Shown: positions 3,867-47,824 of the stretch, piece by piece | Numbering within the stretch: position 1 is the first letter of the stretch | Layout of the letters: every line of letters starts with the position of its first letter | Assembly: GCF_014359565.1 (NCBI RefSeq) | Contig: NZ_JACIZD010000017.1 | Coordinates: 1 to 50,413, forward strand | DNA length: 50,413 nucleotides | Source: Immundisolibacter sp. | GTDB taxonomy: Bacteria > Pseudomonadota > Gammaproteobacteria > Immundisolibacterales > Immundisolibacteraceae | Direction of reading: 5' to 3' | Made by a program: the position numbers and the translations under genes | The notes under the pieces: model-generated | Told to the model about the DNA's origin: nothing | Databases searched by the model: none | The model's input: only the letters and a program-made list of their open reading frames with translations

Positions 3867-3901
3867 AAAGGCGGGGTCGGCATTGCCGGCCCCGCCTTTT
3901 T
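3867..3901. terminator. Bidirectional intrinsic terminator
   Basis: A 12-bp GC-rich stem (3870-3881 with 3885-3896, one G-T pair, ATTG loop region) is flanked by an A run at 3863-3869 and by TTTTT at 3897-3901. It can therefore terminate the cytochrome gene on the plus strand and fabB on the minus strand. The two genes converge here. Confidence 0.92.
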
Positions 3902-32874: not shown

Positions 32875-34016
<1,142 letters not shown>

Positions 34017-34020
<4 letters not shown>

Positions 34021-35191: not shown

Positions 35192-36277
35192 TCAGTGCGC
35201 CGCCTGTGCTGGTGGCGCTTTGGCGCCGTCTGTGATCGGCCGCGCGCCAGGCAGCGACGCATCGAGGGCGGCTTCGAGAAACCGCGGCGCGGCCCATTCG
35301 CGCACCTGAAAGCCTTTGCGGATGAGTCGCTGCGCCAAGGCAAATTCCACGCCGGCCTGCAGGTGGTCCAGAAAGGGCGGATCCAGCTGCGGGGCGAACA
35401 TCTCGCCCAGCCGCTCACCCTCGAGGTCGGTTTCCAGGATCACCCGCGGATACCCCGCCGTGGCGGAGACGAGATCCAGGTAGGCCTCGCGGTTGGCCTC
35501 GTCGGCCAGCCAGCGCACCGCCTGCTGATGGGCGCGCAGCAGGCGCACCACCAGCTCGGGATGCTGGTCCACGAAGGCGCCGGCGCCCACCAGTACGGCC
35601 TGCGTGCTGCCGGCACCCTGGATGTCACGGCTCGACAGCGGGATCTGCGCCAAGCCGCGCTCGCGCAGCGCGATCAGGTTGGACAGCCCCCAGACGGCAT
35701 CCACCTGGCGCGCCGCTAGCGCCGCGGTGGAGGCATTGAAATCGAGATTGATCACCTTGATGTCGCGCTCGCTGAGCCCCTGGCTGGCCAGCGCGGCATC
35801 AAAGGACAGCTGGTTGGCGGTGCCGCGAAACAGCGCCACGCGCCGGCCCTTGAGATCCAGGAGGGTCTTGATCCCGGAGCCCGGCACCACGCCCAGATAG
35901 CTTTTTATGCCGCGCGCGGTGGCGCACAGCAGGCGGGTGTCGAGCCCGCCTGCCTTGCCGATGATGGCCGCCAGATCGCCCAGAAAGGCGAAATCCACCT
36001 GCCCACTGGCGAGCGCCTCGTTGACCGCCGGCCCGGCGCCCTTGAAGAAGGTCCACGCGATGTGGATGCCGTCACCGGCAAATGCCTGCTCGAAGAGCTG
36101 CTGCTCGCGCAGCACGTCCACCAGCCCCCCGCCGCTGGGGCGGCTGCCGGCACCCAGATCGGGCACGGCGATGCGGATTTCCGTAACCGGGGCGGGCGCC
36201 GCCGGCAGCGGCGCATGCCAGGCGGCCAGCAACCCGAGCAGGAGCAGTCGCGGCCATGAGATCGGAAACGTGGGCAT
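35192..36277 (-). CDS. Periplasmic sulfate-ester/sulfonate-binding protein of an ABC importer (AtsR-like)
   Basis: This 361-residue SsuA/TauA/AtsR-type solute-binding protein has a signal peptide (LLLLGLLAAWHAPLPAAPA). Typical parts are EIRIAVPDLGAGSRPSGG, GQVDFAFLGDLAAIIGKAGG, LKGRRVALFRGTANQLSF and VDAVWGLSNLIALRERG. It delivers its ligand to the AtsB/AtsC transporter encoded upstream in the same operon. I chose ATG 36277, with AGGAGG nine bases upstream; a longer start at 36301 places the ribosome site inside the gene. A strong hairpin separates it from atsA, perhaps so that binding protein is made in excess. Confidence 0.88.
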   Translation of the reverse strand: MPTFPISWPRLLLLGLLAAWHAPLPAAPAPVTEIRIAVPDLGAGSRPSGGGLVDVLREQQLFEQAFAGDGIHIAWTFFKGAGPAVNEALASGQVDFAFLGDLAAIIGKAGGLDTRLLCATARGIKSYLGVVPGSGIKTLLDLKGRRVALFRGTANQLSFDAALASQGLSERDIKVINLDFNASTAALAARQVDAVWGLSNLIALRERGLAQIPLSSRDIQGAGSTQAVLVGAGAFVDQHPELVVRLLRAHQQAVRWLADEANREAYLDLVSATAGYPRVILETDLEGERLGEMFAPQLDPPFLDHLQAGVEFALAQRLIRKGFQVREWAAPRFLEAALDASLPGARPITDGAKAPPAQAAH

Positions 36278-36310
36278 TTTTTGGCGCCTCCTGGGCGTCA
36301 TTTTCTGGAC

Positions 36311-36343: not shown

Positions 36344-38822
<2,479 letters not shown>

Positions 38823-38826
<4 letters not shown>

Positions 38827-40484
38827 GCGTGTCTCCAGTAGGTGCTGCGTCGCTCCAGCAGCTGTCCGAGTGCGCCCAGGGCCGCGCCGGTGAGTCCGAT
38901 CAGCAGCATGCCGCTGAGCACCAGGTCCATGCGGAACAGTTGCTGGGCACCTATCAGCAGGCTGCCGATGCCGCCACCGGACGGCATGAAGTACTCCGCA
39001 CCGACGGTGCCGAGCCAGGCATAGATGAGCCCCAGCCGCAGACCGGCGAAGATGGCCGGCAAGGCGCCAGGCAGGATCAGCAACCGCAGCCGCTGGCGCA
39101 GATTCAGGCGCAGAACGCCGGCCGCTTCGGCAAGCTGCGGGGACAGGTCGGCGACGCCGTGCTGGGTAGCCAGCAGCAGCGGGAAGAAGGCGGCAAGCGC
39201 CACGAACACCACCTTGGCCGGCTCGCCGAGCCCGAACCAGGCGGTGAGCAGCGGCACCCAGGCGAAGATGGCCACCTGGCGCACTGCGGCCAGCGCCGGA
39301 CCCAGTGCGCGCTCGGCGGGGCGCCACAGCCCCAGCGCCAGGCCGAGCAACACACCGCTGCCGCCGCCCAGCGCCAGTCCGCCCAGGGTGCGCCCCAGGC
39401 TCAGCGCCATGGCGGTCGGCAGGCTGCCGTCGAGCAGGCCGCTCGCGGTGGTGTGCAGCACCGCGAGCGGTGCGGCCAGGATGCGCGCAGCGCCGCCATG
39501 CTGGCTGGCGAGCTGCCACACCGCGAGCAGTACCAGCGGCAGTGCCCACGACTGCACGCCCCAGCCACCGGGCGCGGCGCGGCCACCGGCAAACGCAGCC
39601 ATGCCAGGCTGCGGCCAGTGCACCATGCGCTGGCTCAGGCGGTGCATGGCCCAGGCCATGACCCCGCCGGTCAGGCCGACCACCAGGATGCACACCAGGA
39701 CGATGTCCAGCATGAACAGTTGCCGGCCCCACACCATCAGGTAGCCGATTCCCTCGCTGGAGGCCAGCAGTTCCACCGCCAGCAGCGCGGCCCATCCCTG
39801 TGACAGCGCAAGCCGCAGGCCGGTGAGGACCGACGGCAGCGCCGCCGGCACGGTCAGGCGCCACAGTCGCACGCCGCGCGGCAGACGCAGCACCGCCGCT
39901 GCCTCGCGCAGGCGCGGCGGCACGTCCCGCGCGCCGACCAGCGTGTGCACGGTTACCGGCACGACGATGGCCTTGACCAGCACCACCCACTTGAGCAGTT
40001 CGCCGATGCCGAAAAACAGCATGAACAGGGGAATCCAGGCCAGCGTCGGCACCTGCGCCAGGGCGCTGAAGGTGGGGTAGATCAGCCGTTCGGCCCGCGC
40101 GCTGGCGTCCAGCACGGCCCCCAGCAGCAGTCCCGTGGACACGCCGCCCAGCAGTCCCAGCGCCAGCCGCTGGACGCTGATCCACAGTTGCCCCCCCAGT
40201 TCGCCCGAAGCCAGTTCCAGCGCAGTTTTTGCGACCACCTCGGGGGAAGGCAGTATCTGCGGCGACATCCACTGCTGCCGGCTGGCCAGGTACCACAGCA
40301 GCGCCGTCAGCGCGGGCACCAGCCATGGCACCAGCGCGGCGCCCAGACGGCGGCCGTAGCTCGGCGCGGCGCGCACCGTGCCGGGCTGGATGCCGGCACG
40401 GTGCGCGGCCGCGTCACCGGCCGACGCGCCAGATCCTGCATACAGCGTGTGCATCAGCGTTGCCACGTGCGGGTGCGCGGCCAT
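38823..40484 (-). CDS. atsB: Fused two-domain ABC permease (AtsB-like)
   Basis: This 553-residue inner-membrane permease is a tandem fusion of two SsuC/TauC-type domains, roughly 45-290 and 305-553. Each has about six helices and an EAA loop (REAAAVLRLPRGVRLWRLTVP in the first and AEAAGVLRLNLRQRLRLLILP, about 455-475, in the second). The usual sulfonate permease is a homodimer of one domain, so the fusion allows the two halves to diverge. A cytoplasmic N-terminal extension of about 45 residues is unusual. It follows exbD by one base and overlaps atsC by four. Confidence 0.9.
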
Positions 40485-40485
40485 G

Positions 40486-40887
40486 TCAGCGCGCCGTGAT
40501 TACGGCCAGACGCGTGATGCCCGCCCGCTCGATTGCGGCCATGGCCTGCGCAACCACGCCGTAGTTCACGCCGGCGTCGGCCTGCAGCTGCACCCGCAGA
40601 TCGGCGTTGCTCGCCCGGGCCGCCGCGAGATTCGCTTCCAGCAGCTCGGGCTGGATCTCGTCCTTGCCGATGAACACCTTGCCGGCGCTGTCGATGCCCA
40701 CCACCAGCGGCTCCTTCTGCTCCGGCGGCGCGACGGCGGCGGTCTTGGGCAAGTTGACCTGGATGGCGTTGGTCAGCAGCGGCGCCGTGACGATGAACAC
40801 CACCAGCAGCACCAGCATCACGTCCACCAACGGAGTGATGTTGATCTCGCTGAGGACTTCGTCCGAGTCCTGGGTCGAGAAGGCCAT
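40486..40887 (-). CDS. exbD: ExbD/TolR-family protein
   Basis: This 133-residue protein is one half of the proton channel that powers TonB. It has one N-terminal transmembrane helix after EINITPLVDVMLVLLVVFIV, with the conserved Asp in the helix, and a periplasmic domain (VVGIDSAGKVFIGKDEI to ITRLAVITAR). The order tonB-exbB-exbD is kept, followed directly by the ABC permease. A dedicated set inside the sulfate-ester locus is uncommon. Confidence 0.93.
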   Translation of the reverse strand: MAFSTQDSDEVLSEINITPLVDVMLVLLVVFIVTAPLLTNAIQVNLPKTAAVAPPEQKEPLVVGIDSAGKVFIGKDEIQPELLEANLAAARASNADLRVQLQADAGVNYGVVAQAMAAIERAGITRLAVITAR

Positions 40888-40888
40888 G

Positions 40889-41599
40889 TCAGAACGCCTC
40901 CCGCACGCGTTGCACGGCGGCAGGGCGGGGCGCCGGATGTGCAATCACCTGGAAGGAAGACTTCTGCGCCAGGCTGTAGAAGTCGTGAGCAAAGTCGTCG
41001 AGGTCGGCCGCGGTCAGCTTCAGGCGCCGCAGGAAGTAGTTGTAGACCAGCACCGCGGGCACCGCGACGGCGATACCAAAACCGGTCGCAATCAGCGCCG
41101 CGCCGATCGGGCCGGCCACCGTTTCAAGGCTGGACGAGCCGGCGGCGGCAATGCCATCGAGCGCTTTCATGATTCCCCACACGGTGCCGAACAGGCCGAT
41201 GAACGGCGCCGTGGAGCCGATGCTGGCCAGTGCCGCGAGGCCGCTTTCCAGCCCCCGCCGCTCGCGTTGCACTTGTTGACGCAGCGCCCGTTCCAGGCGG
41301 TCCTGGTGGTCGATGGCGTGGCTGAGGTCACCGGCCGGCGCTGCCGCGGTATGCAAGGCGGCAAAACCAGCCTGCGCCACGCGCGCGGCGGCGCCGGGCG
41401 CCTCGTCCACCAGCTCGGCGGCGGCCGGCAGGTTGGAGGCGCTCCAGAACCGTTTCAGAAAACGCCGGTCCTGGCGTTTCAGGCGGACGAACTGCACGCC
41501 CTTCAACAGGCCCAGCGCCCAGGTGATGGTGGAGAAGCCGGCCAGCAGCCACAGCACCGCGTGGTCTACCGACTGGATGGGGGATGCCGACAGGTTCAT
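40889..41599 (-). CDS. exbB: ExbB/TolQ-family proton channel protein
   Basis: This 236-residue protein has three transmembrane helices: one at about 15-35, and two in the conserved C-terminal half (LASIGSTAPFIGLFGTVWGIM and GAALIATGFGIAVAVPAVLVYNYF, each given by its ends at about 128-148 and 170-193). It makes the ring of the TonB energising channel with ExbD. The ATG at 41599 is preferred over a TTG five codons upstream. One base separates it from exbD. Confidence 0.93.
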   Translation of the reverse strand: MNLSASPIQSVDHAVLWLLAGFSTITWALGLLKGVQFVRLKRQDRRFLKRFWSASNLPAAAELVDEAPGAAARVAQAGFAALHTAAAPAGDLSHAIDHQDRLERALRQQVQRERRGLESGLAALASIGSTAPFIGLFGTVWGIMKALDGIAAAGSSSLETVAGPIGAALIATGFGIAVAVPAVLVYNYFLRRLKLTAADLDDFAHDFYSLAQKSSFQVIAHPAPRPAAVQRVREAF

Positions 41600-41635
41600 G
41601 GTCTTTAATTCCAAGTTGACTCGGGACAGGTTGGC

Positions 41636-42433
41636 TCAGGACAGGCTGAAGCCGATCGGTACGCTGACCCAGCCGTCCTCGGCCAGGTCGCCGCGCTTCG
41701 CCGGCACGAAGGTCCAGCGCCGGACCGCCTGTGCCGCCGCCGCATCCAGGACATCCCGGCCGCTCGACTGCTGCACCTGGATTTCGCTGGGCACGCCAGT
41801 GGCACGCACGTGGACGCGCAGCACCACGGTGCCTTCCCAGCCGCGGCGGCGGGCGAACTCCGGGTACTCCGGCGGCGGGTTGCGCAGGTAATCCGCGTTC
41901 GCCGACGGCGGCGTCGCCGCCGGTGGACGAAGCGCCGGGGGTGCCGGCACGGCGGGCGCAATTGGCGCAGGCGCGTGCATCGGAGCCGGCTCGGGCGCAG
42001 GCGCAGGCGGGGCCTTCGGCCTGGGCGGCGCTTTGCGTGGCGCCGGACGCGCGGCGAACTCATCTACCTGCGGTGGCGGCGGTGACGGCGGTGCCACCAC
42101 CGGTTGCGGAACGACCGGCTGCGGCACCACGGGCTGCGGCATGACCGGCGGCGGCGCCGGGCGGGTCAGTTCGATTTCAAGCGGCGGGACGATCGGTGCC
42201 GTCATCGGCAGCGACGGTTCCGGCTGGGCATTCCATGCGTGGAACATCGCGCCATGCAGCACCACCGCCAGTGCCGCAATCAGCACCGCTTCACGGCGAC
42301 TGAGCACGTGCCCGGGCGGGAGCGCGCCAACGAGGACTGGCGCGGCCTGTACCGCGGGGCGGTAAGCCTCGCGTACTGGAACGTTGCGCCAGTACAGCGC
42401 AGAGACGCTGTCGGCGGTCAGCGCGTTGCCCAT
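41636..42433 (-). CDS. tonB: TonB-family energy-transducing protein with N-terminal extension
   Basis: TonB couples the ExbB/ExbD proton channel to outer-membrane receptors. The 265-residue protein has one transmembrane helix at about 49-66, a long Pro-rich spacer with repeated PQPVV units (about 97-175), and a C-terminal TonB domain (PPEYPEFARRRGWEGTVVLRV, about 187-207, then AAAAQAVRRWTFVPAK). About 45 residues precede the helix, longer than in ordinary TonB. It is the first gene of the tonB-exbB-exbD-atsB-atsC-atsA-binding-protein operon. The sigma-54 promoter P2 and an intrinsic terminator lie upstream, in that order. Confidence 0.92.
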   Translation of the reverse strand: MGNALTADSVSALYWRNVPVREAYRPAVQAAPVLVGALPPGHVLSRREAVLIAALAVVLHGAMFHAWNAQPEPSLPMTAPIVPPLEIELTRPAPPPVMPQPVVPQPVVPQPVVAPPSPPPPQVDEFAARPAPRKAPPRPKAPPAPAPEPAPMHAPAPIAPAVPAPPALRPPAATPPSANADYLRNPPPEYPEFARRRGWEGTVVLRVHVRATGVPSEIQVQQSSGRDVLDAAAAQAVRRWTFVPAKRGDLAEDGWVSVPIGFSLS

Positions 42434-42470
42434 GAATGCACTCCTGCCTGAGCGAACAAAGAAACCGTAC

Positions 42471-42499
42471 AAAAAACCGGCACGGGCTGGCCCCGCCGG
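42471..42499 (-). terminator. Intrinsic terminator in the tonB leader (attenuator candidate)
   Basis: On the minus strand, CCGGCGGGG pairs with CCCGTGCCGG (eight to nine base pairs with one bulged G and a CCAG loop), followed directly by six T. It lies between the P2 start (about 42538) and the tonB ATG at 42433. An upstream CCCGC/GCCG segment near 42507-42515 can pair with CGGCGGG of the terminator arm, giving a plausible antiterminator. Confidence 0.75.
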
Positions 42500-42549
42500 C
42501 TGATGTCGGCGCGGGCCTGTCCCGGGTGTCGGCGGACGCTCTTCCCTTA

Positions 42550-42564
42550 GCAGGTCGCGTGCCA
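42550..42564 (-). promoter_or_regulatory. Sigma-54 promoter P2 (tonB operon)
   Basis: The minus-strand sequence TGGCACGCGACCTGC matches TGGCACG-N4-TTGC with one change, keeping GG and GC ten bases apart. Predicted start is near 42538, 105 bases before tonB. It should drive tonB, exbB, exbD, atsB, atsC, atsA and the binding protein. Confidence 0.8.
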
Positions 42565-42568
42565 AAAA

Positions 42569-42581
42569 TAACTTACTGATT
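42569..42581 (-). promoter_or_regulatory. IHF-like site near P2
   Basis: Minus-strand AATCAGTAAGTTA matches the IHF consensus WATCAANNNNTTR at all defined positions but one. It is centred about 37 bases upstream of the predicted start, between P2 and the palindrome at 42645-42662, where a DNA bend would help a sigma-54 activator contact polymerase. The surrounding tract is AT-rich. Confidence 0.4.
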
Positions 42582-42644
42582 TTGTGTGAATAATTTTATT
42601 AATGGCCGGGGCCATGCTGCCGCATCAACAGTGCGCTCAGCAGC

Positions 42645-42662
42645 CTGTTGCGCGTGCAGCAG
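42645..42662. promoter_or_regulatory. Palindrome CTGTTG-N6-CAGCAG upstream of P2
   Basis: CTGTTGCGCGTGCAGCAG is an imperfect palindrome, 15 of 18 bases the same as the one upstream of P3 (48048-48065). It is centred about 115 bases upstream of the predicted start, a normal enhancer distance for a sigma-54 activator. An extra half site CAGCAG is at 42638-42643. Binding by the local regulator is inference. Confidence 0.45.
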
Positions 42663-42888
42663 AAACGCCGGGGCCGGGCCGGATGGTCGGGGTGTCCCCG
42701 CTACGAGCCCGATGCTCGGGACAGAAAGGGGCTGGGTCGTCGGGCCGTTTGTCGCGCGGTGGTCTTGCACGGTCGGCCGGCGCCCGCCCCTCGGCATTGC
42801 GCCGGTTTCCTTTCCGTCGCATGCAGCACACGCCGGAGCGCCCGGCGCGCAGCGAACCGGTGGAGCGGGAGGCGGCAATACGCGGCGC

Positions 42889-42912
42889 GCCGGCGCAGGG
42901 GCCTGCGCCGGC
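42889..42912 (-). terminator. Strong hairpin after the atsK-like gene
   Basis: A perfect 11-bp inverted repeat (42889-42899 with 42902-42912) begins 20 bases after the dioxygenase stop on the transcribed strand. It has no T tract. It may mark the end of the receptor-sulfotransferase-dioxygenase unit. Confidence 0.45.
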
Positions 42913-42931
42913 CGGCACGCCGGGGTGCAGA

Positions 42932-43837
42932 TCAGGTGGGGCGCAGGGTCTGGCTGCGCGTGCCGTCCACGCCAAATGGCACATCGCCAGCCACGGTCAC
43001 GCGGCGCACGATGCGCGGCTGCGCGTCGTAGTCGTCCACGGCGTAGTGCTGCGTGGCGCGGTTGTCCCAGATGGCCACGTCACCGACCCGCCAGCGCCAG
43101 CGAACGGAGTTCTCGGGACGGGTGACGTGGCCCTGCAGCAGGTTGAACAGCTGCGTCGAATCGGCCGGCCCATAACCCTTGATGCGCTTCACGAAATGAC
43201 CGAGCAGCAGGGCGCGCTCGCCGCTGACCGGATGCACGCGCACCACCGGGTGTTCAGTCTCGTAAACGGTGGAGGTGAACACCTTGCGGTAGGTGTTCAG
43301 CTGCTCCGTGGAGATGTGTGGTTTCACAGCCGCGTAGTCGTACTCGTTGCTGTGTACCGCCCACAGGCGGTCCGCCAGGTCGCGCAGTGGCGGCGGCAGG
43401 TGGGCGTAGGCGGCGGCGGTGTTTGCCCACAGGGTGTCGCCTCCGGACCGGGGCACGACCACGGCCCGCAGCACCGCGGCCCTGGGGTAATCGGCCACGA
43501 AGGTCACGTCGGTGTGCCAACTGTTGGCACGTTGGCCCAGGGCACCGTCCAGTTCCAGCAGGAAGCGGGTACCTTCCCGTACCGGCACCGTGGGGTGCGC
43601 AACGGGGGAGCCGAGCCGGGCGGCAAAAGCCTCCTGGCCGGCGTCATCGAGGTGGGTCTGGTCGCGGAAGAACAGCACCTTGTGAGCCACCAGGGCGTGT
43701 TCTATCGCGGCCAGGGTGGTGTCATTCAGCGCCGCGGACAGTGCAATGCCGCGAATCTCGGCGCCGATGCGTCCGGCGACCGGGGCGATGTCCAGCTCCT
43801 GGGCGTGCGCTGTAGCAGCGAGTGCGGAGTGGGTCAT
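42932..43837 (-). CDS. atsK: TauD-family alkylsulfatase dioxygenase (AtsK-like)
   Basis: This 301-residue Fe(II)/2-oxoglutarate dioxygenase matches AtsK of Pseudomonas putida in length and residues. AtsK cleaves alkyl sulfate esters oxidatively, releasing sulfate and an aldehyde with succinate and CO2. The facial triad is His108 and Asp110 (SWHTDVTFV) and His264 (RATQHYAVDDY), and the 2-oxoglutarate/substrate arginines are 275 and 279. I recall the same numbering in AtsK. ATG at 43837 follows GAGGA. TauD is the related alternative, but the ats neighbours favour AtsK. Cytoplasmic. Confidence 0.88.
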   Translation of the reverse strand: MTHSALAATAHAQELDIAPVAGRIGAEIRGIALSAALNDTTLAAIEHALVAHKVLFFRDQTHLDDAGQEAFAARLGSPVAHPTVPVREGTRFLLELDGALGQRANSWHTDVTFVADYPRAAVLRAVVVPRSGGDTLWANTAAAYAHLPPPLRDLADRLWAVHSNEYDYAAVKPHISTEQLNTYRKVFTSTVYETEHPVVRVHPVSGERALLLGHFVKRIKGYGPADSTQLFNLLQGHVTRPENSVRWRWRVGDVAIWDNRATQHYAVDDYDAQPRIVRRVTVAGDVPFGVDGTRSQTLRPT

Positions 43838-43994
43838 GTCGGGGTCCTCATGGGGTTGAATCAGGGTTCGAAGAAAGCCGTCGCGCGCCACGACATCGCT
43901 CGTGCCTGAGGTGGCCGGCTGCCGGCCGGGCCGCACTATGCGGGCAGTGAATCGGTGGTCGGGCGCGACCGGTTGCGGCGTGCATCGCCGGGCG

Positions 43995-45374
43995 TCAGCG
44001 TGCCGCCGTGCGCTGCACGGGAACCTGCCCCGGCAGCGTGGGGATGACCGCTTGTTCGCTGCGCGCGGTGCCTTCGGGCGCCCAGTCGTATGGCACCGGT
44101 GTCGCGCGATAGACCCAGTTGCTCGAAGCATCCCCGTGCGGCGCCTTGCCGAAATACGGGCTGACGTACTCCCAGACGATCTCGCCCTGCGCCGTCACCT
44201 GGAAGAACCGGCCAGTCATGCCCTCGTCTATCAGCGTGTTGCCATTGGGCAGCCGCCGCGCACTGCTGATGAAGGAGCTGAAAAAGGCCCAGCCGGGCTG
44301 CCGCGAGCGCTCGGCGCTGTACTGCCAGACGATCTGCCAACTGACGGGGTCAATTTCCAGCACCCGCGAACCGGAAGTCACCTGCAACGGCGTCGGCGGG
44401 TAGCCGGCCGCGCCCTGGTTGTCGAACACCAGCAGGTTGCCGGCGCCGGGCAGGCCGGCGGGGATCAGGTGCGCGTCGTGCTGGCCGACGAACTGGTCCA
44501 CCGGCCGCGGCACGTGCTGGCCGGCCTTGGGGTCTATTGGCGGCAGCCCCGGGCCCAGGCGCCACACCACCTTGCCGCTGGCCTTGGCGATGATGGCGAT
44601 GAAGTTGGCGTTGCGCGCGTCGATCATCAGGTTGTCCGGATGAAAACGGGCATCGCCGGCGTCGAACCACCTGTTGGGCCCGAGCACGCTCAGGTTGTTG
44701 ACGTGCAGGTAATCCGGGTTTTTGGTGGCGCGCACCAGCGCCAGTTGCTCGGCGGTGAAGCCGAACTCCTCCAGGTGCTCGGAGGCCAGCCAGCGCCACG
44801 CGATCTCGCCGTTGGGCGTGATTTCGTACACCGCGTCGTCAATGACTACCGGCACGTCGAAGCCGGCCACCGGGTGCGGCTTGTTGACCAGCACCAGTGT
44901 GTTGCCGTTGGGCAGTCGGCGCAGGTCGTGATGCTGGCGGGCGGCGCCGTCTGGGGCGGCATCGCCCCAGCGCCATACCACCTTGCCGTCCCAATCCAGC
45001 TCGCCGATGGCCTGGTTGTCCAGCCCATTGCCGGGGGAGGCGAGCGGGTGCGGCTTTTCCGTGGCAGCCAGCTGCACCAGCACGCGGCCGCGGGCGCCGC
45101 CGGCCAGCGCCGGGTCCAGCAACACGGTGGGAAAGCCGGGGTAGTCCCAGCGGCGCACTTCGTTGCCGTTCATGTCGATGAGGCGGGTCTTGCGGTCCGC
45201 ACCGCTGAACACGACGTAGCCGTTCCAGGCCTTCTGTGGGTCGTAACGGGTCACGCCGGTGGGGTAGACGCTGGGCGCGCCATGCGCAGCGGCGGCCAGC
45301 ATCAGCCCGGCCATTGCGGCCAGCCAGCCGCGCCGTACCGCTACGGCGTGAAAGAACGTAGGTATGGTCGTCAT
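43995..45374 (-). CDS. Arylsulfotransferase-family beta-propeller protein
   Basis: This 459-residue periplasmic protein has a signal peptide (cleavage near AAAAHGAPS). Its blade repeats are typical of the arylsulfotransferase (Arylsulfotrans) beta-propeller family: YEITPNGEIAWRW, HHDLRRLPNGNTLVLVN, GQHDAHLIPAGLPGAGNLLVFDN, VLEIDPVSWQIVWQY, ARRLPNGNTLIDEG and GEIVWEYVSPYFG. PAPS-independent members move sulfate between phenols through a sulfo-histidine; several His residues are present, but I cannot assign the catalytic one. It lies 41 bases after the receptor gene, so it may act on sulfate esters at entry. Confidence 0.8.
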   Translation of the reverse strand: MTTIPTFFHAVAVRRGWLAAMAGLMLAAAAHGAPSVYPTGVTRYDPQKAWNGYVVFSGADRKTRLIDMNGNEVRRWDYPGFPTVLLDPALAGGARGRVLVQLAATEKPHPLASPGNGLDNQAIGELDWDGKVVWRWGDAAPDGAARQHHDLRRLPNGNTLVLVNKPHPVAGFDVPVVIDDAVYEITPNGEIAWRWLASEHLEEFGFTAEQLALVRATKNPDYLHVNNLSVLGPNRWFDAGDARFHPDNLMIDARNANFIAIIAKASGKVVWRLGPGLPPIDPKAGQHVPRPVDQFVGQHDAHLIPAGLPGAGNLLVFDNQGAAGYPPTPLQVTSGSRVLEIDPVSWQIVWQYSAERSRQPGWAFFSSFISSARRLPNGNTLIDEGMTGRFFQVTAQGEIVWEYVSPYFGKAPHGDASSNWVYRATPVPYDWAPEGTARSEQAVIPTLPGQVPVQRTAAR

Positions 45375-45415: not shown

Positions 45416-47824
45416 TCAGAAGTCGTAACGAGCACTCACGCCCAGCGTGCGGGGCGTGCCGATCAGGCCGCCGTAGCCGCCGTTCTGTTCGTTCCAGAGG
45501 ATGGTGTAGTAGGTCTTGTCGAAGGCGTTCTTGAGCCACAGCGACAGGTCCAGCTGGCCTTTGCCCAGGTCCACGCGCACGCCGGTGGACAGGTTGACCA
45601 CCGCGTAGCTCGGGATCTGCCCGAACTTGGAATCGTCGAGCGTGCCCGGCGCGCTGGAGCGGAACGCGTAGCTGGCGGCCAAGTAGTGCTGCAAGCCGTC
45701 GCCGGCGCGCCAGCGATAGTCGCCGCTGAGGTTGGCGATCCACTTGGGGGCACCCACCACCTGCCGGCCGGTCAGGTCGCAGGACTGCGGCGCGCCTGGC
45801 TGGAAACCGATTTCCGGCGGGCAGGGCGCGTCCTTGTAGGACAGGTAGGTGGCATCGTTGTACGAGCCGTTGAAGCTCAGCGTGAGGCCGCGCAGCGGCA
45901 GCGCGGTGGCTTCGAACTCCAGGCCGCGGGTACGCACCGAGCCGGCGTTGGTCAGGTAGCGGGTGAAGGATGCGTCGTCGAAGGCCAGGGTCTGATAGCC
46001 GTTGACCTGGCTCCAGAACACATTGGTGTTGAGCAGCAGGCGGCGGTCGAAAAGGACGCTCTTGACGCCCAGTTCAGCGTCGTTGGCGCGCTCGGCGCCC
46101 ACCAGCAGGGAATCGGCGCCGGCGGTCGGCGCGGCCGACACCGACAGGTCTATGCCGCCGGACTTCTCGCCATGCGAGATCGAGGCATAACCCAGCACCT
46201 GCGGCGTGAACCGGTAGCCCAGGCTCAGCAGCCCGGACGGGCTGGAAGCGTTCAGGCCGAGGTCGCCTGAGTCGTAGGCGCCATAGCGGCCGTTGCGCGC
46301 TGCCGCCGCCGGGCCGGCTACCGGTGCGCCGCCGACCGGTGCGTCGCGGTCCACCCGTGCGTCCTTGCTTTCGTAGGTGCCGCGCGCGCCGGCGGTGAGG
46401 TCGAGGCGCTCGGTCAGGTGCCAGGTGCCCTGCGCGAACAGCGCGTAGCTGTCGATCTCGATCTGGCCGTGGCCGATGCTGGTGACGTTGGCCAGCGCGC
46501 CGGGTGGCGTGTCATTCCAGGTATCCGCAAGCGGGCCATTGAAGAAGAAGGATTCGTTGGTCAGGTCCTGGCGAAAGTAATAGGCGCCCAGCACATAGTC
46601 GAAGCGGCCGCCACTGGGTGAGGCCAGACGCAACTCCTGCGAGTACTGGTCGTCCCGTACCGACTGGCCGGCGTTGAGGCTGACCGGCACGTTCAGCCCA
46701 TCGTCGTTGCGCGGCGTGAAATTCCAGAAGCGGTATGCGCTGACGGACGTCAGCGTGAAGTCATTCGCCAGTTTCCAGTTGGCTTCCAACGAGGTGCCGC
46801 CCTGGAACACCCGCACGTTCTGCGCGCCGTCGATATTGACCTTGCCGTCGCGGCCATCCACCAGGGTGGCGCCGACCGCGGCCGCGCGCTGTTCGTAGCG
46901 GTTTATCCCGCCGATGGTCGGGCCGGTGCTGAACAGCACCCGGGTGCCGTTGCTGGAATCTTCCTCGTGGTAGTCGCCGATCCAGCGCACGTTGAGGTCC
47001 GCGCTGGGCTCGAACAGCAGTTGCCCACGCACGCCCTCGCGCTCGCCGCCGTTCAGGCGATCGCCATTGAAAACGTTCTTGATGTAGCCGTCGTCGCGCG
47101 TGCGGTACGCCCCCAGCCGGCCCGCCAGGGTGTCGGTCAGTGGCCCCGACAGCACACCCTTGCCCTGGAAATAGCCGTCCTGCCCACCGCTAGCCTCGAA
47201 GCTGCGCTCCGGCGTGAAGCTCGGCTTGCGGGTGGTGATGTTGAGCACGCCGGCGGTGGTGTTCTTGCCGAACAGCGTGCCCTGTGGGCCGCGCAGCACG
47301 TCGATCTGCTCCACGTCCAGCAGGTCGAACACCGCCATGCCGGGGCGGCCCAGAAACACGTTGTCCACGTAAATGCCGACGCTGCTTTCCAGGCCATCGC
47401 TGGCCGGGTTGTTGCCCAGACCACGTATGGAAATGCTCGACTGGCGGGCATGCATGTGTGCCACGTTGACGCTGGGCGCCAGTTGCTGGATGTCCTGCAC
47501 GCGGTAGATGCGCTGCGTCTCGAGCGTTTCGCCGCCCAGCACACTCATGGGCGTGGGCACATCCTGCGCGTCCTCCTCGCGGCGGCGCGCCGTGACGGTG
47601 ACTTTCTTGAGCGCCACCGCCGACTTGGCGGGCGTTGCCGTGACGGCAGGCTGGGTGTCGGTGTTGTCCAGCGTGGGCGCGGCATCTTCTGCCCATGCGC
47701 CATGCCTGGCGCCCATTGCCTCCAGCGTCAGCAGCAACGCCACCACCCGTTTCGACCTCTGCGTGTTGCCTGCCGTGGCGGTTCCGGCAGGCCGCGGCAT
47801 GACGTCTTTTGTTTCGAAATCCAT
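45416..47824 (-). CDS. TonB-dependent outer-membrane receptor
   Basis: This 802-residue outer-membrane receptor has a signal segment (cleavage near MGARHGAWAE), a TonB-box-like LKKVTVTARRR, a plug domain (SISIRGLGNNPASDGLESSVG to QIDVLRGPQGTLFGKNTTAGVLN, about 125-190), and a 22-strand-type barrel ending in ARYDF. It resembles the large family often called siderophore or FecA-like receptors, but its neighbours point to import of sulfate esters or related organosulfur compounds. The ATG follows AAGGAAGGGAG. It is the first gene of the unit controlled by P3. Confidence 0.93.
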   Translation of the reverse strand: MDFETKDVMPRPAGTATAGNTQRSKRVVALLLTLEAMGARHGAWAEDAAPTLDNTDTQPAVTATPAKSAVALKKVTVTARRREEDAQDVPTPMSVLGGETLETQRIYRVQDIQQLAPSVNVAHMHARQSSISIRGLGNNPASDGLESSVGIYVDNVFLGRPGMAVFDLLDVEQIDVLRGPQGTLFGKNTTAGVLNITTRKPSFTPERSFEASGGQDGYFQGKGVLSGPLTDTLAGRLGAYRTRDDGYIKNVFNGDRLNGGEREGVRGQLLFEPSADLNVRWIGDYHEEDSSNGTRVLFSTGPTIGGINRYEQRAAAVGATLVDGRDGKVNIDGAQNVRVFQGGTSLEANWKLANDFTLTSVSAYRFWNFTPRNDDGLNVPVSLNAGQSVRDDQYSQELRLASPSGGRFDYVLGAYYFRQDLTNESFFFNGPLADTWNDTPPGALANVTSIGHGQIEIDSYALFAQGTWHLTERLDLTAGARGTYESKDARVDRDAPVGGAPVAGPAAAARNGRYGAYDSGDLGLNASSPSGLLSLGYRFTPQVLGYASISHGEKSGGIDLSVSAAPTAGADSLLVGAERANDAELGVKSVLFDRRLLLNTNVFWSQVNGYQTLAFDDASFTRYLTNAGSVRTRGLEFEATALPLRGLTLSFNGSYNDATYLSYKDAPCPPEIGFQPGAPQSCDLTGRQVVGAPKWIANLSGDYRWRAGDGLQHYLAASYAFRSSAPGTLDDSKFGQIPSYAVVNLSTGVRVDLGKGQLDLSLWLKNAFDKTYYTILWNEQNGGYGGLIGTPRTLGVSARYDF

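Follow-up and report, generated by a model that had tools for sequence, protein, structure and literature searches.

The usual description of sigma-54 promoters is that initiation is all-or-none. A terminator placed directly behind such a promoter provides a second point of control, as is the case in nitrate assimilation. In Klebsiella nasF, readthrough increases from 5% to 52% with nitrate (PMC7496416), and ANTAR targets are defined by tandem A1/G4 hexaloop hairpins (PMC3369931). A leader of this kind was detected in the genome analyzed here, upstream of an nrtA-like gene (L098:1500-1691; G000:C19 near 32632). A sigma-54 site is followed by an ANTAR-type leader with the A1/G4 hexaloops AGCGAA, ACCGAC and AACGGA, then by a terminator (U8; d'Aubenton-Carafa-type score d about 60) whose arm overlaps the stem of the last hexaloop, and the ATG of the nrtA-like gene lies 37 nt after the first U of this terminator. 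Judged by its letters, the nrtA leader is a sigma-54 plus ANTAR attenuator of the nasF/NasT scheme. The genome has one ANTAR protein, NasT, which adjoins nitrate genes. At L100 (G000:C19:21839-22454 and downstream), the genes for NasT (ANTAR) and NasS are located behind a sigma-54-like site TGGCACGGCCACTGC, and the leader downstream also carries two A1/G4 hexaloops.

In the window (the whole stretch of Immundisolibacter sp. DNA that was analyzed, 50,413 nt), the sequence indicates a real intrinsic terminator in the leader of a sulfur-scavenging operon of seven genes, which starts with tonB and has a predicted sigma-54 promoter (Table 1). At 42499-42471, a GC-rich hairpin runs straight into a U-tract, which is the arrangement of an intrinsic (Rho-independent) terminator. 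Read on the minus strand, the stem of the compact hairpin consists of CCGGCG/UGCCGG plus GGG/CCC, and together with the U6 it has a score of d = +26. The distance from the end of U6 to the tonB ATG (42433) is 37-38 nt, and the first U is 43 nt ahead of the ATG. An earlier sequence-only reading had located this hairpin and U6 ahead of the tonB start, and its coordinates are correct base for base. It had also left no room for another promoter after the hairpin, which agrees with our search: no sigma-70-like promoter was found in 40000-45000 or in 42300-42930, and about 37 nt are left behind the hairpin. The terminator is therefore placed between the predicted promoter P2 and the first gene with no later promoter match, as in an attenuator. 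The operon of seven genes that the same reading had counted was confirmed as tonB, exbB, exbD, permease, ATPase, sulfatase and binding protein. Its statement that the leader has no frame with an ATG could be extended, as no ATG, GTG or TTG is present between 42538 and the hairpin, which does not fit leader-peptide attenuation.

Table 1. Features of the tonB leader and the surrounding sulfur cluster (positions in the window)
Feature	Position	Strand	Remarks
Sigma-54 site P1	47982..47996	-	Upstream of TonB-dependent receptor gene (45416-47824)
Hairpin, 11 bp, GC, no U-tract	42889..42912	-	About 20 nt after tauD stop (42932)
Inverted repeat	42626..42650	-	CAACAG-GCTGCTGAGCGCA-CTGTTG; possible enhancer (EBP) site
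IHF-like site	42569..42581	-	AATCAGTAAGTTA (WATCARNNNNTTR); just upstream of P2, AT-rich stretch
Sigma-54 promoter P2 (predicted)	42550..42564	-	TGGCACGCGACCTGC; -24 GG 42563-42562, -12 GC 42551-42550
Extended single hairpin	42476..42533	-	Minimum-energy fold of the short leader RNA, -34.9 kcal/mol; abuts U-tract
Apical hairpin	42489..42517	-	GGCCC-G-CGCCG/CGGCGGGGCC; -22 kcal/mol; alternative pairing
Compact terminator hairpin	42477..42499	-	CCGGCGGGGCCAGCCCGUGCCGG; 9 pairs, -14.2 kcal/mol, loop CCAG
U-tract U6, predicted RNA 3' end	42471..42476	-	Read from sequence
Shine-Dalgarno AGGAG of tonB	42441..42445	-	Read from sequence
tonB (TonB_C domain), first gene of operon	41636..42433	-	ATG 42433-42431
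exbB	40889..41614	-	
exbD	40486..40887	-	
Fused ABC permease, AtsB/SsuC type	38823..40484	-	Two BPD_transp_1 stretches
ABC ATPase, taurine/sulfonate-type	38005..38826	-	Below curated cut-offs
Sulfatase	36344..38008	-	
SsuA-like substrate-binding protein	35192..36301	-	Below curated cut-off
Sigma-54 site P3	34986..35000	-	Upstream of hydrolase-EBP genes
Sigma-54 activator (EBP)	32875..34020	-	No receiver domain

P2 has a -24/-12 element of the TGGCAC-N5-TTGC type with the correct GG-GC spacing, and transcription is predicted to start at about 42538, giving a leader of 105 nt to the tonB ATG. In the 60 nt ahead of P2, A and T make up a fraction of 0.62, and the IHF-like site was called by comparison with the IHF consensus. 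The 8-mers GCTGCTGA(G), GCTGCTGAG and GCAACAGGC are common to the upstream regions of P1 and P2, where they sit inside or beside inverted repeats resembling enhancer sites. The strict pattern TGGCACGN5TGC has 26 copies in the 3.09-Mb genome, most of which are chance matches because a reversed control pattern is about as frequent. On the 50-kb contig, three copies were found while 0.42 are expected, and all three are on the minus strand, upstream of genes of one sulfur cluster. P2 is therefore credible as a sigma-54 promoter on sequence grounds, since three of the 26 strict sites fall on the contig, each before sulfur-cluster genes, and since the site is kept in distant tonB-exbBD homologues. 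P1, P2 and P3 have the appearance of a small regulon with its own activator (receptor-assT-tauD, tonB operon and hydrolase-EBP, respectively), and the EBP in Table 1 is likely the regulator of the three promoters. No terminator was found in the P1 and P3 leaders.

We read the element in the P2 leader as mainly a fixed transcriptional attenuator, a judgement that we consider evenly balanced. The P2 transcript would start near 42538, fold into the GC-rich hairpin and meet the U6 at 42476-42471, where a share of the RNA polymerases, probably the majority, would stop after about 68 nt. The remaining polymerases would read through into tonB-exbB-exbD and the genes for the ABC transporter, sulfatase and binding protein. 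Premature termination is expected because the terminator lies in the leader and no second promoter was found after it. In this way, the attenuator would reduce expression of the inner-membrane operon compared with that of the receptor (P1) and activator (P3) units, both of which are terminator-free. The hairpin, the U-tract, their positions, the promoter site, the lack of another promoter match and the recurrence in relatives were observed, whereas we infer that termination occurs in vivo, how efficient it is, and that regulation is largely absent.

A short leader with two alternative folds could also have the look of a regulated attenuator. In such a case a protein, a small molecule or an RNA would select either the apical hairpin (42517-42489), allowing readthrough, or the compact terminator, and this choice would add a second sulfur-related check after sigma-54 initiation. 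We hold this reading as a tentative possibility, and the folds bear on it in both directions. The two pairings are strong and mutually exclusive, and CCCGCGCCG at 42515-42507, for which the sequence-only reading had considered an alternative pairing with the terminator arm possible, does take part in one that is more stable than the compact terminator (-22 versus -14.2 kcal/mol). However, the apical hairpin is the upper part of the extended hairpin (42533-42476; z = -2.8, 1 of 200 shuffles as good), and the lower stem of the latter, GCCG.CAC/GUG.CGGU, again ends directly at the U-tract. Structure prediction recovered both pairings, but even in the preferred, minimum-energy fold a stem abuts the U-tract. 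With a stem at the U-tract in either fold, stronger upstream pairing would extend the terminator and not cancel it, and the extended hairpin could zip up while the RNA exits the polymerase, without displacement of the first hairpin. Because the extended form ends at the same U-tract, the alternative pairing need not prevent termination. In the predicted folds it lengthens the terminator, and an antiterminator is not evident; CCCGCGCCG is accordingly not favoured in that role, its pairing being real but the top of a longer hairpin. Competition alone is no evidence of a switch either, because shuffling the 5' segment gave equally strong competition in 19% of cases, with the compact hairpin pushed below 1%.

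The regulated reading gains from the membership of the operon in a starvation regulon and from the nrtA sigma-54 plus ANTAR attenuator in the same genome, whose U-tract, 37 nt before the ATG, gives a similar geometry; the search for known switches speaks against it. No Rfam family matched the tonB leader or the leaders of the tested relatives. No CAT_RBD protein (BglG/LicT antitermination) was matched in the genome, and no second NusG-family protein (RfaH/LoaP) was found there, with one PF02357 match only. The tonB transcript lacks the pair of hexaloops that marks ANTAR targets. The sole A1/G4 hexaloop near the leader, GGA-AGAGCG-TCC (3 bp, 42545-42534), starts upstream of the predicted transcription start. 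An ANTAR reading of the tonB leader was rejected, as the motif is absent here while the nrtA control shows it. The absence of a leader peptide, and of a conserved leader among the sigma-54 homologues, also counts against regulation. The terminator may be regulated, but nothing in the sequence demonstrates this.

To the fixed attenuator, the relatives of tonB-exbBD add the following comparison. A sigma-54 element was detected just before tonB-exbBD in L017, L018, L037, L048, L049, L053 and L109; the relatives with a homologous ExbB that carry such an element include Methylomonas, Methylomicrobium and four representatives of a further family, among others. In Methylomonas, an EBP gene (59% identical) adjoins tonB-exbBD. 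No terminator was found in 12 other sigma-54-type tonB leaders from other organisms, and the combination of sigma-54 promoter and terminator at tonB appears so far to be known only from this genome. A DNA search for the leader in the genome gave one copy, and there was no detectable homologue whose covariation could show the two folds. In the same-genus genomes G001 and G002, matches were to a tonB paralogue only, and no fused permease was found in G002. Among the ExbB relatives of one family, two kinds of tonB promoter were observed, one Fur-box-like with GAGACGCATTCTCAAAA (L030, L050 and L052) and the other sigma-54 (L037, L048, L049 and L053). On a plasmid of Candidatus Methylocalor cossyra (L115), homologous tonB-exbB-exbD is located near sfnG (dimethylsulfone monooxygenase), a neighbourhood which ties this TonB module to sulfur scavenging. 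In Azotobacter, homologous tonB-exbBD adjoin a sulfonate-binding protein.

The ExbB search also reached a Pseudomonas-type genus, where 192 of the 328 genomes sampled gave a match. Terminators with d>0 were found in 12 of 98 relatives' leaders, compared with 2 of 1980 shuffled tonB leaders, and the first U lies 31-41 nt before the tonB ATG in these 12 relatives (43 nt in the window). The TonB tree revealed one supported Pseudomonas clade of 12 rows, ten of which have d>0. One of the other two rows is just below zero and one has a broken U-tract, and two other leaders with d>0 are scattered. The leaders of this clade (L102, L103, L160, L161, L163, L178, L191, L199, L206 and others) share with the window the operon start tonB-exbB-exbD (ExbB about 75% identical) and a hairpin plus U-tract (U5-U7), with the first U 31-35 nt before the ATG. 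They differ from it in their TonB, which is at most about 51% identical, and in having the promoter block TTACTTTAAGAGATAAGC and no sigma-54 site. A conserved promoter-like block TATAACTTTAAAGATTACTTTAAGAGATAAGC is situated ahead of their hairpin. In the hairpin, 95.8% of cells are paired, with one pair changed on both sides, and sliding the partner breaks the pairing; the covariation is weak and not above shuffles. In the tonB upstream regions of L101-L206, a conserved promoter block ATAACTTTAAAGATTACTTTAAGAGATAAGC is followed about 12 nt later by an element (N)ATSATT, and this block is possibly a sulfur-starvation (CysB-type) promoter. The tonB-exbBD of L117, L118, L119 and L200, also Pseudomonas, has a sigma-54-like site GGCACASTWATTGCT and lacks the block of the others.

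No significant homology between the leader in the window and the Pseudomonas leaders was obtained by nhmmer with two models, and a homology suggested by the resemblance of CCGACATCAGCC and CCGATGATTCAGCC was rejected for lack of a significant match. Because no homology between the leaders was detected, the recurrence in Pseudomonas may be coincidence or convergence, and a leader terminator at this operon has come about in two settings or more, whether convergently or by accident. The attenuator or antitermination switch proposed by the sequence-only reading is upheld as to the terminator behind a sigma-54 promoter, which the recurrence among relatives favours, but not as to the switch, for which no ANTAR, Rfam, CAT_RBD or second NusG component was found. 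We regard as doubtful the idea that the tonB-led operon carries, after sigma-54 initiation, an antitermination switch that responds to sulfur, belongs to no described type (neither ANTAR nor riboswitch nor leader peptide) and evolved more than once, the last part of which is suggested by the terminator at the same place in unrelated Pseudomonas tonB leaders.

It is improbable that the hairpin is a chance product of 70% GC sequence and terminates rarely or never in vivo. Hairpins rich in GC are frequent in this genome, and the sigma-54 homologues show no conservation of this one. The 450 kb used for terminator statistics (the 50-kb window plus 400 kb of stretches of the same genome) contains 252 runs of T5+ on the two strands, and in only 20 cases does a hairpin of -12 kcal/mol or below lie immediately ahead of the run. 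The leader terminator is the only one of the 20 that is far (430-455 nt) from the end of the preceding gene on its strand and has a gene start less than 80 nt downstream. By our estimate from the site density, a genome of this size could contain one or two leaders of this type by accident, and position alone is suggestive and no proof. Against an accident stand its score, which is comparable to those of the evident 3'-end terminators of this genome, the rarity of d>0 among the shuffled leaders, and the recurrence in relatives' tonB leaders. A strong bidirectional intrinsic terminator was also noted at 3869-3897 of the window, between convergent genes.

Nor do we give much weight to the view that the hairpin is an ordinary terminator of the receptor-assT-tauD unit, or a barrier to pervasive readthrough, with the true tonB promoter overlapping or following it. 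That unit is on the same strand and ends about 430 nt earlier, and the hairpin at 42912-42889 has no U-tract. However, the latter hairpin is tauD's own and, by its position in the sequence, is the probable 3' end of the unit. In addition, a strong sigma-54 site whose position is conserved in homologues lies upstream of the terminator, and the 37 nt left after the terminator hold no promoter match. Finally, it is hardly likely that P2 serves to make a small RNA for sulfur starvation, about 68 nt long, as the selected product while the operon lives on readthrough, since, although the RNA is compact and structured with a terminator tail and sigma-54-dependent small RNAs such as CrcZ and GlmY exist, it is not conserved, has no Rfam match, and ends in a U6 that is short for Hfq binding.

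That such terminators recur in the Pseudomonas clade, there with a different promoter, suggests that the output of dedicated sulfur TonB modules may be kept low after initiation, and this idea is testable in ordinary laboratory strains of Pseudomonas. If the terminator is regulated, it would represent a new kind of sulfur-sensing attenuator.

Compared with the NasR/NasT leaders of nitrate assimilation, the tonB leader is alike in having a sigma-54-type site, a terminator, and then a Shine-Dalgarno sequence and an ATG about 40 nt past the first U. The layout is similar in length as well (105 nt here, 100-170 nt in NasR/NasT leaders). In contrast, it has no tandem hexaloops, its terminator is weaker (d of 26 versus 60), and it belongs to a sulfur and not a nitrogen regulon. 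By analogy, the tonB leader would work like the terminator half of the NasT system, of which it is not a member. With the riboswitch-type attenuators in Rfam it shares a competing hairpin and a terminator before a transport operon, while a family match or a conserved aptamer-like core is lacking. The gene content resembles Ats/Ssu scavenging of sulfate esters and sulfonates with an SfnR-type EBP. Here likewise a fused permease, an ATPase, a binding protein and a sulfatase are present, and so are a TauD-type dioxygenase, an arylsulfotransferase, a receptor and an EBP without receiver domain. Unlike in the Ats/Ssu systems, the first genes of the transport operon encode a TonB energy module, and a terminator is present in the leader. 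The tonB leader is a new example of attenuation, a known kind of control.
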